Part shown: positions 23,107 through 32,918 of the stretch, piece after piece
Layout: each line of letters starts with the position of its first letter
Numbering within the stretch: the first letter of the stretch is position 1
The notes under the pieces: model-generated
Database searches by the model: none
What the model saw: only the letters and a program-made list of their open reading frames with translations
Told to the model about the DNA's origin: nothing
Translations under genes and position numbers: made by a program
From: an uncultured Actinomycetes bacterium
Lineage (GTDB): Bacteria; Actinomycetota; Actinomycetes; Nanopelagicales; Nanopelagicaceae
Direction: 5' to 3'
Assembly: GCA_937876245.1 (NCBI GenBank)
Contig: CALEGP010000009.1
Coordinates: 40,527-104,526, forward strand
DNA length: 64,000 nucleotides

Positions 23107-24006
23107 CTACGCTCGAGGATGAGCCTGTTGATATGCCTTTTTTAGCCGTTCAGGTGAAACATGCGTATAGATCTGAGTTGTCGCTAGTGAGGAGTGCCCC
23201 AAAATCTCCTGCACCGTCCGAAGATCTGCCCCTCCTTCAAGCAAATGGGTGGCAGCGGTATGTCGAAGGCCATGCGGACTCATATGCGAATCAATAGCTT
23301 GCATTGCGCGATAAACAACCTCGCGGACAGTCCTTTGATCCATGCGTTTGCCTCGCGCTCCAAGAAAGACTGCATCTTCTGAACTCTCATTAAGGAGTTC
23401 AACTCGACCAACTTCTAACCAATTTTGCAGAGCGCGCATTGCCGGAAGCCCAACCGGAACAACCCGCTCTTTATTTCCTTTGCCTAAAACCTGAAGGGTA
23501 TTTCGCGACATATCAATATCGCGAATATTTAAGCCACAAATTTCAGAAACTCGAGCCCCTGAGGCATAAAGAACTTCAATTATCGCCAGGTCCCGGATAT
23601 TTATCGGATTCGGCTCCTCTCCTGCTTTTGCCGAAATAGCCGCCAGAACAATCTCGGTTTGCGAACGAGTTAAAACTTCAGGAAGGGTCTTGTGCGCCTT
23701 AGGTATCGCAAGATTTGACCCTATATCCGTTGGAATCCACTTTTGACTTGCCGCCCAATAAGTAAAGGCTCGAATCGAAACAATTCTTCGAGCCAGCGTC
23801 GCTCGAGAAATTCCTGTTGATTGCAAATTAGCTAGCCAAGAACGAATATGCGTTATTTGGAGATCAGAAAATTCAGAAATGCCTAATTTTTCAATATGAG
23901 ATAAGAAAGATTCAAGATCACTTACATAGCCGCGAATAGAATTATCGGCCAAATTACGAACTAGCGCCAAGTGCTCCTCGTATTTAGCAACTAACTCAGA
24001 GCTCAT
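23107..24006 (-). CDS. xerC: Site-specific tyrosine recombinase XerC
   Basis: Resolves chromosome dimers at dif together with XerD. The 299 residues have the N-terminal SAM-like DNA-binding domain (about 1-90) and the catalytic domain with Arg in ASGARVSEICGL, the HGLRHTAATHL box (H and R) and the nucleophile Tyr in TTQIYTHV. Its position upstream of rpsB is the usual actinobacterial place for xerC, so it is a housekeeping recombinase rather than a phage integrase. A TAGCCT box lies six bases before the ATG. Confidence 0.92.
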   Translation of the reverse strand: MSSELVAKYEEHLALVRNLADNSIRGYVSDLESFLSHIEKLGISEFSDLQITHIRSWLANLQSTGISRATLARRIVSIRAFTYWAASQKWIPTDIGSNLAIPKAHKTLPEVLTRSQTEIVLAAISAKAGEEPNPINIRDLAIIEVLYASGARVSEICGLNIRDIDMSRNTLQVLGKGNKERVVPVGLPAMRALQNWLEVGRVELLNESSEDAVFLGARGKRMDQRTVREVVYRAMQAIDSHMSPHGLRHTAATHLLEGGADLRTVQEILGHSSLATTQIYTHVSPERLKKAYQQAHPRA

Positions 24007-24012
24007 ACCTCA

Positions 24013-24018
24013 AGGCTA
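24013..24018 (-). promoter_or_regulatory. -10 box of a probable leaderless xerC promoter
   Basis: TAGCCT followed by TGAGGT and the xerC ATG. A -35-like TTCGAC lies 17 bases further upstream, a good spacing. The box overlaps the stop codon of cimA. TGAGG could serve as a short-spaced ribosome-binding site, so this is not unambiguous. Confidence 0.5.
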
Positions 24019-25599
24019 CTCGGGTTTTCTTCCTTGTCGAAGTAAGCCATATGTAACAGAATCTTCAAGCGCCATAACTGAGGCAGCTATAACATTTTCA
24101 TGAACTCCAATTGTGCTCCACTCTGCTGCGCCATCGCTTGTTTCAACGAGTACTCGAGTCACGGCGCCGGTTCCCAACCGCCCCTCAAGAATTCGGACTT
24201 TGTAATCAGTGAGCTCCAGCTTCTCTAACTCTGGATAAAACTTAAGTAAGCCGGAGCGAAGAGCTGTATCAATTGCATTAACTGGTCCATTGCCTGAACC
24301 CTCCGATTCAATCTCTTTACCGCCAGCAGATATTGTGAGAAAAGCCTTTGAAGTCACGTTGTTATTTACATCGCGACTTACAGTCGTGTCCCACTTCTCA
24401 ACTTTGAAGAAAGTTGCCCGCTTGCCATCAATCTCTTCTCGAAGTAAAAGTTCAAATGAAGCATCGGCTGCTTCAAAAGTAAATCCGCGTGACTCCATCT
24501 CTTTTACACGCTCGACGACTCGTCCTAGAACGCTTTTATCCTCGCCAATTTCAATTCCAAGTTCCTGAGATTTAAGTTCTATAGATGCTCTGCCTGCCAT
24601 CTCAGAAACCAACATTCGCCGATCATTGCCAACCGAAGAAGGATCTTCATGTTGATACATAGCTGGATCAACTTTTATCGCACTTGCATGCAGCCCTGCT
24701 TTATGCGCAAAAGCTGAAACTCCAACATAAGGTTGGCGTGCGCTAGGAGCAACATTGGTAACTTCAGCAACTGCATGAGAAATTCTAAATGCTTCGCGAA
24801 GTGCCCCGTTCGGAAGAACGCTCTGCTTCTTCTTTAGTTCTAAGTTGGCAATAATGCTGACCAAGTCGGCATTACCAGTGCGTTCACCATAGCCATTTAA
24901 AGTTCCCTGCACATGTGTTACACCAGCAGAAATTGCAGCGAGCGAATTGGCAACCGCGCACCCCGTGTCATTGTGGCAATGAATTCCCAGTCTGGCACTT
25001 GAGGCACTCAAAACATCATGCACAACTTGTGAAAGTTCATCAGGCAACATTCCACCATTGGTGTCACAGAGTGCAATTACATCGGCCCCAGCTTCAGCAG
25101 AAACGCGGACGACTTCAAGTGCGTAAGCGCGATTAGATTTGTAGCCATCAAAGAAATGCTCGGCATCTAGAAATACTCTCTGGCCTCCGGCGCGCAAAAA
25201 TTCAATTGACTCTTTGATCATTGCCAAATTCTCATCAAGATTAGTTTTCAGTGCGAGATCTACGTGGCGATCATGACTCTTGGCTACAAGAGTTACCCCT
25301 GCCGCCCCAGAATCTTGAAGGGCTCGCAACAACACATCATCTGCAGCCTTAATATTTGGTCTACGGGTGGCGCCAAAGGCCATAAATGTTGCATTCTTTA
25401 ATTTAAGTTCCGTTTTCGCCCGCTTAAAAAATTCCGTGTCCTTCGGATTGGCTCCCGGCCAACCACCTTCAATAAAACCAACGCCTAGCTCATCTAAGTG
25501 GCGTGCAATAGCCAGCTTGTCATGAACCGAAAGATTCAGCCCTTCTTGCTGGGCGCCATCTCTAAGCGTTGTGTCATATATGTGAAAATTGTCATTCAT
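24016..25599 (-). CDS. cimA: (R)-citramalate synthase
   Basis: Condenses pyruvate and acetyl-CoA to citramalate, the entry to 2-oxobutyrate for isoleucine without threonine deaminase. The 527-residue DRE-TIM metallolyase has IYDTTLRDGAQQEGLNLS at the N-terminus, the metal site GIHCHNDTGCAVANS and a C-terminal LeuA-type regulatory domain (about 390-527). Length and sequence fit CimA/homocitrate-like enzymes better than LeuA, and the neighbours ilvE, leuB (which can process methylmalate) and ilvBNC support this. It abuts ilvE with no gap. Confidence 0.88.
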   Translation of the reverse strand: MNDNFHIYDTTLRDGAQQEGLNLSVHDKLAIARHLDELGVGFIEGGWPGANPKDTEFFKRAKTELKLKNATFMAFGATRRPNIKAADDVLLRALQDSGAAGVTLVAKSHDRHVDLALKTNLDENLAMIKESIEFLRAGGQRVFLDAEHFFDGYKSNRAYALEVVRVSAEAGADVIALCDTNGGMLPDELSQVVHDVLSASSARLGIHCHNDTGCAVANSLAAISAGVTHVQGTLNGYGERTGNADLVSIIANLELKKKQSVLPNGALREAFRISHAVAEVTNVAPSARQPYVGVSAFAHKAGLHASAIKVDPAMYQHEDPSSVGNDRRMLVSEMAGRASIELKSQELGIEIGEDKSVLGRVVERVKEMESRGFTFEAADASFELLLREEIDGKRATFFKVEKWDTTVSRDVNNNVTSKAFLTISAGGKEIESEGSGNGPVNAIDTALRSGLLKFYPELEKLELTDYKVRILEGRLGTGAVTRVLVETSDGAAEWSTIGVHENVIAASVMALEDSVTYGLLRQGRKPE

Positions 25600-26685
25600 T
25601 TAGCAAACCTTCACATTCCAGCCATGTTTATCTTCAATTAGTCCGTGCTGAATTCCAAGGATGGTTTCCCGAATTTGAGCTGTAATTGGTCCTGGTTTTC
25701 CGTCGCCGGTATTCCATGTTCCGAATTGACTCTTAGCTGCACCAATCGCGCTGACAACAGCCGCGGTACCACACGCAAATATTTCAGTTATTTCACCGCT
25801 AGCTACTCCGTCTCGCCAGTCATCAATTGAGAACATTACTTCCTCAACTTTATAACCTAAATCTTTGGCGACAGTAAGAATCGAATCTCGAGTTATTCCA
25901 GGCAGTAATGTTCCCGTTAATTTTGGCGTGATGATAGTCGCATCTTCTCCAGAACCCTTAATGAAATAGAGATTCATGCCGCCCATCTCTTCAACCCAGC
26001 GGCGTTCTACTGCATCTAACCAAACTACTTGATCGCAACCTTTGGTCGCTGCCTGTTTTTGCGCTACAAGTGAAGCCGCATAATTCCCACCACACTTTGC
26101 CTCCCCGGTTCCACCAATAGCTGCACGAACGTATTCGGTTGAGATCCAGACAGTGACTGCTTCTGCCGCATTAAAATATGCACCTGCCGGAGTTGCAATA
26201 AGCATATACATTGCTCTGTTTGAAGGGCGCACTCCAAGGCCAACTTCGGTTGCAAACATAAATGGCCGGATATATAGCGATTCGCCAACCTTGGTTGGAA
26301 CCCACTTCCTATCTTCCTTAACCAAAGTCGTAATCGTCTCGATAAATTCGGGAACGCTAAGCTCTGGCAGGGCCAAACGAGCCGCGCTTCTGGCAAATCG
26401 CCCGGCGTTTGCATCGGGCCGAAAGAGCGAAATACTGCCATCTGGTTGTGAATACGCTTTCATTCCCTCAAATATTTCTTGACCATAATGAAAAACTGCC
26501 GTTGCTGGATCAAGAGTAATTGGACCATATGCCTTCAACTCGGCATCACCCCAGCCCTCTGCTTCACTCCAATTAGCAACTATCATGTTATCTGTGTAGT
26601 ACTTTCCGAATCCGCCCGCTGCAATTTTCGACTGACGATCAGCTTCGGTAGCTGGGGTTTGATTTGGGGTTAAATTTATTTTCAT
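25600..26685 (-). CDS. ilvE: Branched-chain amino acid aminotransferase
   Basis: Fold-type IV PLP aminotransferase that makes the final step to valine, leucine and isoleucine. The 361 residues include [28 protein letters not shown], and the [17 protein letters not shown] stretch typical of the longer IlvE subgroup of Actinobacteria. The start overlaps the leuB stop (ATGA), showing coupling, and cimA follows directly. Confidence 0.95.
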
Positions 26686-27719
26686 TTCACACCAGCTGCT
26701 AGCGCATCTCCGATTTGAGAAGTACTTCTTTTGGCTTCTCCGCGACTTAACAAATCTGCAGCAACTGCTCGTTCGATATCTGCGGCGGCATCATGCAAGC
26801 CAAGATGTGAAAGCATCATTGCCACTGACATTACAGTCGCGGTGGGATCAGCAAGCGATTTACCAGCAATATCTGGTGCCGAACCATGAACTGGCTCGAA
26901 CATTGATGGGAATTCACCAGTTGGGTTGATATTTCCCGAAGCAGCAAGGCCGATACCGCCACAAATTGCAGCGGCAATATCAGTCAAAATATCGCCAAAA
27001 AGATTATCAGTTACAACGACATCAAAACGCTCTGGGTTGCTAACGAAGAACATAGCTGCCGCATCCACATGCAAATAATCGGTTTCTACATCTGAAAATT
27101 CTTTTGCTACCTCGTTAAAAGTGCGCGTCCAAAGTCCACCGGCGCGAGTTAAAACATTATTTTTATGTACAAGAGTCAATTTTTTTCTCGGCCGATTTTG
27201 GGCACGAACAAATGCATCACGGATAACTCTCTCAGCACCGCGTCGAGTATTTAGACTTTCCTCAGTGGCGATTTCATCTTTAGTGCCATAGGCAAGTGAC
27301 CCACCGGCGCCAACATATGGCCCCTCAGTTCCTTCTCGAACGACAATAAAATCAATTGAACCAGAATTAACCAGCGGTGATTTAACGCCAGCATGCAACT
27401 TTGCCGGTCGTAGATTTATGTAATGATCAAATGCGAAACGCAATTTCAGAAGCAGGCCGCGTTCTAGCACGCCACTTGGAACTGATGGGTCCCCAACTGC
27501 GCCAAGAAGAATGACGTCGGCTTTAGCCAATTCGGCCATAACAGAGTCAGGAAGTACTTCCCCAGTTTTGTGCCAGTAATTAGCACCCAACTCATAGTCG
27601 GTCTGGCTAAAAGTAACCTCGTATTTGGCAGCTACGATGGCCAGAACCTTGAGCCCTTCAGTAATAACCTCAGGTCCAATCCCATCTCCTGCAATTACCG
27701 CTAAATTAATATTTTTCAT
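26682..27719 (-). CDS. leuB: 3-isopropylmalate dehydrogenase
   Basis: Oxidatively decarboxylates 3-isopropylmalate in leucine synthesis, and in the citramalate route may also handle methylmalate. The 345 residues start [18 protein letters not shown] and contain the metal/substrate segment [19 protein letters not shown] and the C-terminal [18 protein letters not shown]. The ORF track starts three codons earlier at a TTG; the ATG at 27719, one base after the serA stop, is the natural start. Confidence 0.96.
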
Positions 27720-27720
27720 T

Positions 27721-30355
<2,635 letters not shown>

Positions 30356-30401: not shown

Positions 30402-30956
30402 TTATTTCTTATCTTCTGAAATCGAGCCTGGTTTTAGACCTCTAGACATAGCTACCAAGCCTGATTGGACGAGTTCCAAGATGCCATATGGCTCAAGGAC
30501 TCGAAGCAAGGCAGATATTTTCTCGGTATTTCCGGTGGCCTCTATAGTTACTGCATCCTGTGCCACATCCACTACTTTGGCCCGAAAAAGCTGAACCGTC
30601 TCTAATACTTGAGAGCGCGTTGTCACATCCGTTGCAACTTTAACCAGCAAAAGTTCGCGCTGCACTGAAATAACTGGATCAAGCTCGGTGATACTAATTA
30701 TATTAATCAACTTATCCAATTGGGCGATGACCTGCTCTAGAGCATGGTCTTCAACATTTATGACAATCGTCATCCTTGAAAAATAAGGATTCTCGGTTGC
30801 CCCAACAGCCAGAGAGTCAATGTTGTAACCGCGACGAGAGAAGAGCGATGAAACTCGAGCAAGTACGCCTGGACTATTCTCTACTAAAACCGAGAGAGTG
30901 CGAGTCGAGGATGTTGAATGTGATGCGGTCGGTGCATCTGGATGTGATTGAGTCAT
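30402..30956 (-). CDS. ilvN: Acetolactate synthase small (regulatory) subunit
   Basis: Regulatory subunit that confers valine feedback on acetolactate synthase. It has an ACT domain (TLSVLVENSPGVLARVSSLFS), then LDKLINIISITELDP and the C-terminal ALS domain. The ORF track begins 15 codons earlier inside ilvB; the ATG at 30956 with AGGAG seven bases upstream, and one base after the ilvB stop, is the proper start (184 residues). Confidence 0.95.
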   Translation of the reverse strand: MTQSHPDAPTASHSTSSTRTLSVLVENSPGVLARVSSLFSRRGYNIDSLAVGATENPYFSRMTIVINVEDHALEQVIAQLDKLINIISITELDPVISVQRELLLVKVATDVTTRSQVLETVQLFRAKVVDVAQDAVTIEATGNTEKISALLRVLEPYGILELVQSGLVAMSRGLKPGSISEDKK

Positions 30957-30957
30957 G

Positions 30958-32703
30958 TTATAGCTCCTGTGAATCCCAGATGGGGGCAAGTGAACGAGCA
31001 TTAACTATTTCATCGTTAGAAGCTCCGGCAGCAACCATTGGCCAAACCATCGCATCCCGATGAACGCTGAAGTCGACTACTACCGGACGATCGTTAATTT
31101 CCATCGCCTTAGCAATAGTTTTATCGACATCATCCGTTGAGTCACATGTTAATCCGACACAACCCATAGCCTCGGCAAGTTTTGCAAAGTCAGGAATACG
31201 TTTCGAGTGAAGTTCAGTATTTGAGTAACGCTCATTGTAAAACAGAGTTTGCCATTGGCGAACCATCCCAAGACTTTCATTATTGATAACGGCAACTTTT
31301 ATTGGAATGTTATTTAGGGCGCAAGTAACTAGCTCTTGATTGGTCATCTGGAAACAACCATCTCCATCAATTGCCCATACCGTTGTATCAGGAGCACCAA
31401 CTTTTGCTCCCATCGCTGCTGGAACTGCGTATCCCATGGTTCCAAGTCCGCCAGAGTTAAGCCAAGTGCGAGGATTTTCATATGAAATAAATTGTGAAGC
31501 CCACATTTGGTGCTGTCCAACTCCTGCAACATAAATAGAATCTGGACCGGAGATCTTTCCAATTCGCTCAATTACATATTGCGGTGAAACGCTTCCATCT
31601 GTCGGCTGGTCATAGCCCAGCGGGAACCTAGAACGCCAGCCATAGGCTTGTTTCAACCATGCTGATATATCTGGTTGGCTTTTTTTGAATTCACTCTTTA
31701 TCGCAGGAATCAAAGCTTCAATTGTTAATCTAAGATCTCCAATTAATGCAACATCTGCCGCACGATTCTTGCCAATTTCGGCAGGATCTATATCTGCATG
31801 GATAATCTTTGCTCCTGGCGCGAAAGTCGAAAGTTTTCCTGTTACGCGGTCATCGAAACGAGCGCCCAGCGTGATTAATAAATCTGCTTTTTGTAGTGCA
31901 GTTACTGCCGCCACGGTTCCATGCATACCAGGCATGCCAAGATGTTGCGGATGCGAATCCGGAAAAGCACCACGAGCCATGAGAGTTGTGACAACTGGTG
32001 CACCAGTTAACTCAGCAAGTTTCACTAGTTCTTTGTGGGCTCCAGATTTTATAGCACCACCACCAACATAAAGTACTGGGGCTTTTGATTGTGCAATCAG
32101 TGCTGCTGCATCGCGAATTGATTCAGGAGTTGCCTCTATCTTTGGGTGATAGCCACCTAGCTCAATAGTTCTAGGGTAATTAAACTCAGTGCGCATCTGC
32201 AGCGCATCTTTTGCAATATCTACTAATACTGCTCCTGGTCGACCAGTTGATGCGATATGAAAAGCTTCAGCAATTGCACGGGCAATATCCGATGGGTCAG
32301 TGACAAGGAAGGAATGCTTTGTTACTGGCATTGTTATTCCACGAATATCTGCCTCTTGAAATGCATCTGTGCCAATTGCGCCAGAGGCAACTTGACCAGT
32401 AATTGCAACTATTGGCACGGAATCCATTTGTGCATCGGCAAGTGGTGTAACAAGATTTGTCGCTCCTGGTCCTGAAGTTGCAATACAAACTCCGACTCGA
32501 CCCGTTGCTTGGGCATAACCCGTTGCTGCGTGACCTGCGCCCTGTTCATGTCTAACTAAAATATGACGGATTTTGCTATCAAAAATCGGATCGTATGCCG
32601 GAAGAATTGCGCCACCAGGGATACCGAACATGACATCAACGCCAGATGCTTCCAACGCTTTCACAAGGGCGCTCGCCCCCGTCATCTTTGTTGTCTCGCT
32701 CAT
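30958..32703 (-). CDS. ilvB: Acetolactate synthase large (catalytic) subunit
   Basis: ThDP- and FAD-dependent enzyme that makes acetolactate (valine/leucine) or acetohydroxybutyrate (isoleucine). The 581 residues include the catalytic Glu region [18 protein letters not shown], the FAD segment and the ThDP motif [19 protein letters not shown]. The ATG at 32703 with GGGAG seven bases upstream is preferred to the TTG two codons earlier used by the ORF track. It lies behind the leader peptide and hairpins described separately. Confidence 0.97.
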
Positions 32704-32747: not shown

Positions 32748-32769
32748 CCCCTCAGTTTCCACTGAGGGG
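32748..32769 (-). terminator. Attenuator hairpin upstream of ilvB
   Basis: CCCCTCAG-TGGAAA-CTGAGGGG on the minus strand, a perfect 8-bp stem with a six-base loop, followed by TTTCGCATTTAT. The T-tract is interrupted, so termination may be partial. It lies 23 bases after the leader-peptide stop codon, the place expected for the terminator of a transcription attenuator. Confidence 0.7.
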
Positions 32770-32771
32770 TA

Positions 32772-32804
32772 GCACACGGACTAGTTTTTCACTAGAGCGT
32801 GCGC
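32772..32804 (-). promoter_or_regulatory. Pause-type hairpin overlapping the ilv leader stop codon
   Basis: The RNA can pair GCGCACG with CGUGUGC (one G-U) and, inside, CUAGU with ACUAG around GAAAA. The leader stop codon UAG is part of this stem, so a ribosome completing or stalling in the leader would change which hairpin forms. Confidence 0.5.
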
Positions 32805-32830
32805 TCACCAATTACCACGACTGAAATCAT
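32792..32830 (-). CDS. ilv operon leader peptide (MISVVVIGERTL)
   Basis: A 12-residue reading frame, ATG to TAG, in the 215-bp gap before ilvB; too short for the ORF track. Seven of twelve residues are Ile, Val or Leu (I-S-V-V-V-I...L), the amino acids made by this operon. It is followed by a pause-type hairpin and a terminator-like hairpin, the layout of ribosome-mediated attenuation known for ilvB operons of Corynebacterium and Streptomyces. Its ATG lies six bases after the -10 box, so the leader itself appears to be translated from a leaderless mRNA. Confidence 0.75.
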   Translation of the reverse strand: MISVVVIGERTL

Positions 32831-32836
32831 GCCTTA

Positions 32837-32865
32837 ATTCTCCCTTGCCCCTTGCATTTGGTCAA
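32837..32865 (-). promoter_or_regulatory. ilvB operon promoter (-35 TTGACC, -10 GAGAAT)
   Basis: TTGACC at 32860-32865 and GAGAAT at 32837-32842 with a 17-bp spacer, followed by six bases and the leader-peptide ATG. The spacing is optimal for a housekeeping sigma factor. It lies downstream of ilvD, so ilvBNC-serA-leuB-ilvE-cimA can be controlled apart from ilvD. Confidence 0.7.
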
Positions 32866-32918
32866 CCCCAGAGTTAACTATCTCACTATTTAGAAGTAAG
32901 AAATCTTGAGCAACTTGC

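Follow-up and report, generated by a model that had tools for sequence, protein, structure and literature searches.

Introduction

Leader regions upstream of ilvB have been described in Corynebacterium, Mycobacterium and Streptomyces (PMC1262725), and an ilvB-II motif has also been reported (PMC10272879). Experiments support the attenuation mechanism in C. glutamicum, for which a boundary-trinucleotide model is available (PMC11857589), as well as read-through in M. tuberculosis when branched-chain amino acids (BCAA) are scarce (PMC13236596). Mapped transcription starts revealed that ilvL is leaderless in S. lividans (PMC8079986) and C. diphtheriae (PMC5784534), while in C. glutamicum the start maps within 1 nt of the leader start codon (PMC11857589). 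Leaderless ilvL mRNAs were therefore already known.

Here we describe an ilvB leader found in a window of 64,000 nucleotides (the whole stretch of DNA analysed), where it is flanked by ilvD and ilvB on the minus strand. The genome carrying this ilvL-ilvB locus is a Nanopelagicales (acI-type) metagenome-assembled genome (MAG) of 1.52 Mb; among named relatives, MAGs and single cells of the Nanopelagicales are the closest to it. The Nanopelagicales are abundant freshwater bacteria with streamlined genomes, and we found no paper on amino-acid regulation by attenuation in this group. The original prediction, made from the sequence of the window, had referred to ilvB attenuation in Corynebacterium and Streptomyces, and the literature agrees on this point (PMC1262725). 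We conclude that the locus is, with high probability, an attenuator of the ilvL type known from actinobacteria, in which the ribosome controls transcription. Since this type of switch is known from Streptomyces and Corynebacterium, the locus is a well conserved, new lineage of already known ilvL attenuators and not a new mechanism, and leaderless translation, too, had been seen for ilvL before.

Comparison with described attenuators

The locus resembles the C. glutamicum ilvBNC attenuator and ilvB-II (PMC11857589, PMC10272879) in its short leader with Val/Ile/Leu codons, a transcription start (here predicted) beside the start codon, and a hairpin (P1) that covers the end of the ORF immediately before a terminator (P2), with a shared boundary between both, upstream of ilvBNC. 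In contrast to C. glutamicum, the leader has 12 codons instead of 15, a different sequence and a regulatory run without Leu. The overlap between P1 and P2 amounts to 3 nt here and is missing in 22 out of 103 family genomes, no anti-antiterminator was seen in this locus, and the operon additionally contains serA, leuB, ilvE and cimA. Similarly, Streptomyces ilvL (MRTRILVLGKRVG; PMC8079986, PMC1262725) encodes a leaderless leader peptide followed by a terminator upstream of ilvB, but its regulatory codons read Ile-Leu-Val-Leu instead of the Val/Ile run found here, where the -10 element is GAGAAT; the two also differ by a shorter P1 region. The M. tuberculosis ilvB1NC attenuator (PMC13236596), compared by description only, combines a BCAA-rich uORF (LVVI) with a leader terminator that is read through under BCAA shortage, although its leader, unlike the one described here, is 166 nt long. 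The mycobacterial polycysteine uORF attenuators (Canestrari 2020, cited in PMC13236596) share a leaderless amino-acid-sensing uORF, but they respond to cysteine and, according to PMC13236596, act by translation attenuation.

A Val/Ile leader ORF is conserved upstream of ilvB

The ilvL leader peptide gene (MISVVVIGERTL, 12 codons) occupies positions 32830..32792 of the minus strand and ends with a TAG stop codon at 32794-32792. It reads ATG ATT TCA GTC GTG GTA ATT GGT GAG CGC ACG CTC TAG, with GTC GTG GTA ATT as regulatory codons. The ORF, pointed out in the original prediction as an unlisted leader with branched-chain codons before ilvB, was indeed present, and a uORF in the same promoter frame was kept in 105 out of the 106 family genomes with a readable ilvB start when the relatives were checked for loss of the ORF or of its branched-chain codons. 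At least three consecutive Val/Ile/Leu codons were found in 102 of these 106 genomes compared to 0.28% of the family shuffles, and a promoter-positioned ORF with such a run of at least three appeared in 42 out of 20,000 shuffles of the window region. The three leaders without a run of three belonged to genus g6 (MLSRISVRLERAS). For one genome (G008), the family scan picked a different ORF, although its proper leader is present.

Across the family, the Val codons varied synonymously (GTG, GTA, GTC and GTT) while the Val/Ile run was maintained. The runs comprised 320 Val, 174 Ile and 36 Leu codons; given this dominance of Val and Ile codons, sensing in the family appears to be directed at these two amino acids more than at Leu. 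The only genome without the uORF, G057, lacked the promoter and the 5′ arm of P1 as well, but kept the terminator P2 before ilvB. Its altered region lies around 8776-9335 of C191 (L137), and the gap may be a deletion or a misassembly.

Promoter spacing predicts a leaderless leader mRNA

The promoter TTGACC-N17-GAGAAT-N6 ahead of the leader ATG, as originally proposed, was found on the minus strand, with the -35 hexamer TTGACC at 32865-32860, the -10 hexamer GAGAAT at 32842-32837, a 17-nt spacer between them, and TAAGGC between the -10 and the ATG. The -35 sequence TTGAC was present in 103 out of 105 family genomes, and its location 17-18 nt upstream of the -10 was near-universal. Among 105 family leaders, the distance from the -10 to the start codon was 6 nt in 89, 5 nt in 9 and 7 nt in 7. 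In addition, 103 out of 104 leaders carried a T at -7 and 90 an A at -11. With 6 nt separating the -10 from the ATG, transcription is expected to begin at the A of this codon (+1; 32830, minus strand), a position predicted from promoter geometry, and the ilvL mRNA would thus be leaderless.

GGGAG ends 9 nt upstream of the leader ATG of the window, and the uORF could therefore be read from a leadered mRNA, or from an ilvD read-through transcript, with GGAGAAT acting as a Shine-Dalgarno sequence instead of a -10. We regard this as very improbable, since Shine-Dalgarno-like 4-mers preceded only 39 out of 104 leaders compared to 99 out of 104 ilvB starts, whereas T(-7), A(-11) and TTGAC were conserved as described above, and the starts mapped for ilvL in S. 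lividans, C. diphtheriae and C. glutamicum indicate a leaderless mRNA or a start at 1 nt.

A covarying hairpin precedes the terminator

The leader region folded better than 200 out of 200 dinucleotide shuffles (z -4.21). The hairpin P1 (32805-32771, minus strand) consists of an 8-bp GC-rich outer stem (AGCGCACG/CGTGTGCT) and a 5-bp inner stem, and spans the ilvL stop codon. Its stability across the family was far above that of shuffles (mean energy z of -3.5). When the pairing was checked across relatives, P1 covaried, with compensatory changes in 7 out of 12 pairs and 23 double-changed cells versus 8.7 in shuffles, and 85% of its cells were paired compared to 19-52% when the partner was slid. 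Covariation by tool was counted for P1 only; MAFFT/RNAalifold misregisters P2 because the stems differ by one base pair, and the P2 pairs were counted by script. Folding of the plus strand yielded mirror hairpins that are uninformative on the gene strand.

P2 (32770-32747, minus strand) is an intrinsic terminator stem, ACCCCTCAGT-GGAA-ACTGAGGGGT. The original prediction had given this hairpin 8 bp, and we counted 10 (ACCCCTCAGT/ACTGAGGGGT). The remaining elements were found in the predicted order on the same strand: an interrupted U-tract (TTCGCATTT, 32746-32738), the Shine-Dalgarno sequence of ilvB (AGGAAGGGAG, 32719-32710) and the ilvB ATG at 32703. Our family scan detected P2 in 103 out of 105 genomes. 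P2 escaped a simple terminator scan of the window owing to its interrupted T-run; many relatives carry an uninterrupted TTTT or longer after P2. Conservation with compensatory changes indicates that the leader codons, P1 and P2 are under selection.

Since ilvD lies directly upstream of this region on the same strand, both in the window and in 21 out of 23 Nanopelagicales loci, P2 could merely be the terminator of ilvD, the ORF before it being incidental. This is extremely unlikely: a promoter and a Val/Ile ORF separate ilvD from P2 in 105 out of 106 genomes and, among other actinobacteria, the leader was still found in 43 out of 53 loci although ilvD was absent within 3 kb in 40 out of 57.

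The position of P1 fits a ribosome-mediated attenuator. Counted from the first codon of the Val/Ile run, the start of P1 mostly lay 13-17 nt downstream and, relative to the stop codon, in the range from 11 nt upstream to 5 nt downstream. Consequently, a ribosome at the run would leave P1 free, while a ribosome at the stop would cover its 5′ arm. Provided that P1 hinders P2, control would thus run in the correct direction. The hairpin at the stop codon noted in the original prediction was thus confirmed as a covarying structure, but the pause-only role assigned to it was not, and P1 is better read as a ribosome-sensitive switch hairpin. In the mechanism that we propose, RNA polymerase would initiate at the first base of the ilvL start codon and a ribosome would load at the leaderless 5′ end. 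When Val- and Ile-tRNAs are charged, the ribosome would reach the stop and mask the 5′ arm of P1, leaving P2 free to stop the polymerase ahead of ilvB. Under a shortage of Val or Ile, the ribosome would stall on GTC GTG GTA ATT, around 13-17 nt before P1, so that P1 could fold and encroach on or crowd the base of the abutting P2. With P2 blocked, the polymerase would read through into ilvBNC-serA-leuB-ilvE-cimA.

P1 and P2 abut without a detectable antiterminator

The distance between the two hairpins was strongly constrained. The P1-P2 gap was 0 in 81% and at most 1 in 96% of the family, versus 21% and 35% in shuffles. In the window, P1 could be extended into the base of P2 by pairing GGU (32809-32807) with ACC (32770-32768), which creates the 3-nt overlap mentioned above and resembles the boundary-trinucleotide model of C. 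glutamicum (PMC11857589). Outside the family, the stem finder recovered P2 in only 12 out of 43 leaders, 5 of them with a gap of 0.

A classical 2:3 antiterminator of the trp/his type was sought by comparing duplex energies with shuffles, and no conserved helix exclusive with P2 was found in the family: the upstream RNA paired with the arms of P2 no better than shuffles did, and with the 5′ arm worse. The predicted minimum-energy fold contained both P1 and P2. We infer that P1 hinders the closing of the basal pairs of P2, either by taking or by crowding them. In a more specific version, the switch would dispense with an antiterminator helix altogether, and P1 would sterically block the basal pairs of P2 in the RNA exit channel; we find this version doubtful. 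Equally tentative is its corollary that the position of the ribosome would decide only whether P1 exists, in a manner conserved across the Nanopelagicales. If so, a spacer of 3-6 nt between P1 and P2 would lead to constitutive termination with both hairpins intact. The absent antiterminator helix, combined with the conserved zero-length junction, raises a simple and testable question on antitermination.

The leader extends to other actinobacteria

To search beyond the family, we used a covariance model (R1) based on 41 family leaders and, owing to the misregistered P2, only 9 pairs. The search covered 54 other actinobacterial loci (401 kb, both strands), one of which (L059) is labelled Nanopelagicales. 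All 23 matches fell at the ilvB leader and none elsewhere in these loci; individual E-values, from 3e-5 to 0.85, were modest, but the positional agreement was strong. Two of the matched loci were from Streptomyces (L063 and L071), with marginal E-values. In the genome of the window, R1 matched only the ilvB leader. None of the Rfam families (all 4227) matched at gathering score.

Under the same rules as in the family, a leaderless-type BCAA leader was identified in 43 out of 53 other actinobacterial loci and in 0 out of 2,120 shuffles. Together with the spacing kept in the family, this suggests that a leaderless start is typical of ilvL in general rather than peculiar to two model organisms. 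In high-GC actinobacteria (L026-L083), the leader runs used GTA, CTT and ATT, for instance ATT CTC GTA GTA CTT; such codons should be rare in high-GC genomes and may sharpen the sensing.

A conserved operator-like site adjoins the promoter

The original prediction had identified the promoter of this control region but missed a conserved operator next to the -35. A 15-mer resembling the operator of NdgR/LtbR-type regulators of the IclR family (TTCTAAATAGTGAGA, 32881..32895, minus strand) lies 15 bp upstream of the -35. It matches the NdgR/LtbR consensus KTYCRSMWYSYGRRM (taken from PMC8222616) at 12 out of 15 positions, a score also reached by 20% of the shuffled family regions; matches of at least 12 out of 15 occurred in 72% of the family genomes versus those 20%, mostly at identical spacing to the -35. 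A 16-bp palindrome, present in the window in a degenerate form (TGAGATAGTTAACTCT, 10/12; 32870..32885, minus strand), lies 4 bp upstream of the -35. In 83 out of 105 family genomes, the sequence TGAGAT-N4-ATCTCA was separated from the downstream -35 by exactly 4 bp. Exact copies number roughly one per genome, and almost all of them are at ilvB. Of 43 other actinobacteria, 14 carried a variant of the palindrome at this position, compared to an expectation of 0.085. The frame TGAGAT-N4-ATCTCA does not fit the NdgR/LtbR consensus, while the frame shifted by one half-site, TCTC-N7-GAGA, does.

The genome contains a single IclR-family gene (L224:958-1738, G000:C38), divergent from leuC and 40 bp apart from it, with a possible TCTC-N7-GAAA site between the two. 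This gene was present in 11 out of 11 relatives tested. By its family and its position beside leuC, the encoded protein is a candidate NdgR/LtbR; ndgR of Streptomyces is likewise divergent to leuC, and ilvB is among the targets bound by NdgR in S. coelicolor (PMC4340878).

These observations also suit a reading in which promoter control by an NdgR/LtbR-type protein dominates and attenuation by the leader is weak or vestigial. The fixed distance of the operator-like site from the -35, the single IclR-family gene next to leuC and the binding of NdgR to ilvB speak for it, as does S. coelicolor, where altering the codons of the ilvB leader is reported to have left regulation unchanged (PMC1262725). 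Nevertheless, the leader codons, P1 and P2 are conserved with compensatory changes, as expected under selection, and in the window it is the operator that is degenerate while the attenuator is intact; many relatives carry a perfect operator. Both layers could also act jointly. We therefore judge dominant promoter control to be quite unlikely and favour ribosome-mediated attenuation, to which promoter control at the predicted site is likely added, with an NdgR/LtbR-type regulator probably setting promoter strength. The locus thus suggests that a streamlined lineage has retained both layers of branched-chain control.

The probably attenuated operon

The genes downstream of the leader, all on the minus strand, were named by NCBIfam profiles. 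They encode the acetolactate synthase large subunit (ilvB, 30958..32703; NF005860, 1063 bits) and small subunit (ilvN, 30402..30956; NF008864), ketol-acid reductoisomerase (ilvC, 29306..30340; NF004017), phosphoglycerate dehydrogenase (serA, 27721..29352, start uncertain; TIGR01327, 592 bits), 3-isopropylmalate dehydrogenase (leuB, 26682..27728; NF002898), branched-chain aminotransferase (ilvE, 25600..26685; NF009897) and citramalate synthase (cimA, 24016..25599; TIGR00977, 624 bits). The order ilvBNC-serA-leuB-ilvE-cimA, originally proposed as the operon, was kept in 11 out of 11 family genomes checked, serA included. From ilvB to cimA, neighbouring genes either overlap or have no more than 61 nt between them, and the interior of the operon contained fewer promoter- and terminator-like sites than shuffles did. 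Both features make it likely that ilvB to cimA form one transcript, perhaps with internal promoters. The membership of serA in this gene order suggests that serine synthesis may be tied to Val/Ile supply; an ilvBserA1 arrangement is also named in PMC1262725.

Downstream of the operon, xerC (23107-24006, minus strand) begins 9 nt past cimA and is close behind the operon in several family genomes. This chromosome-dimer recombinase gene may also be on the attenuated transcript.
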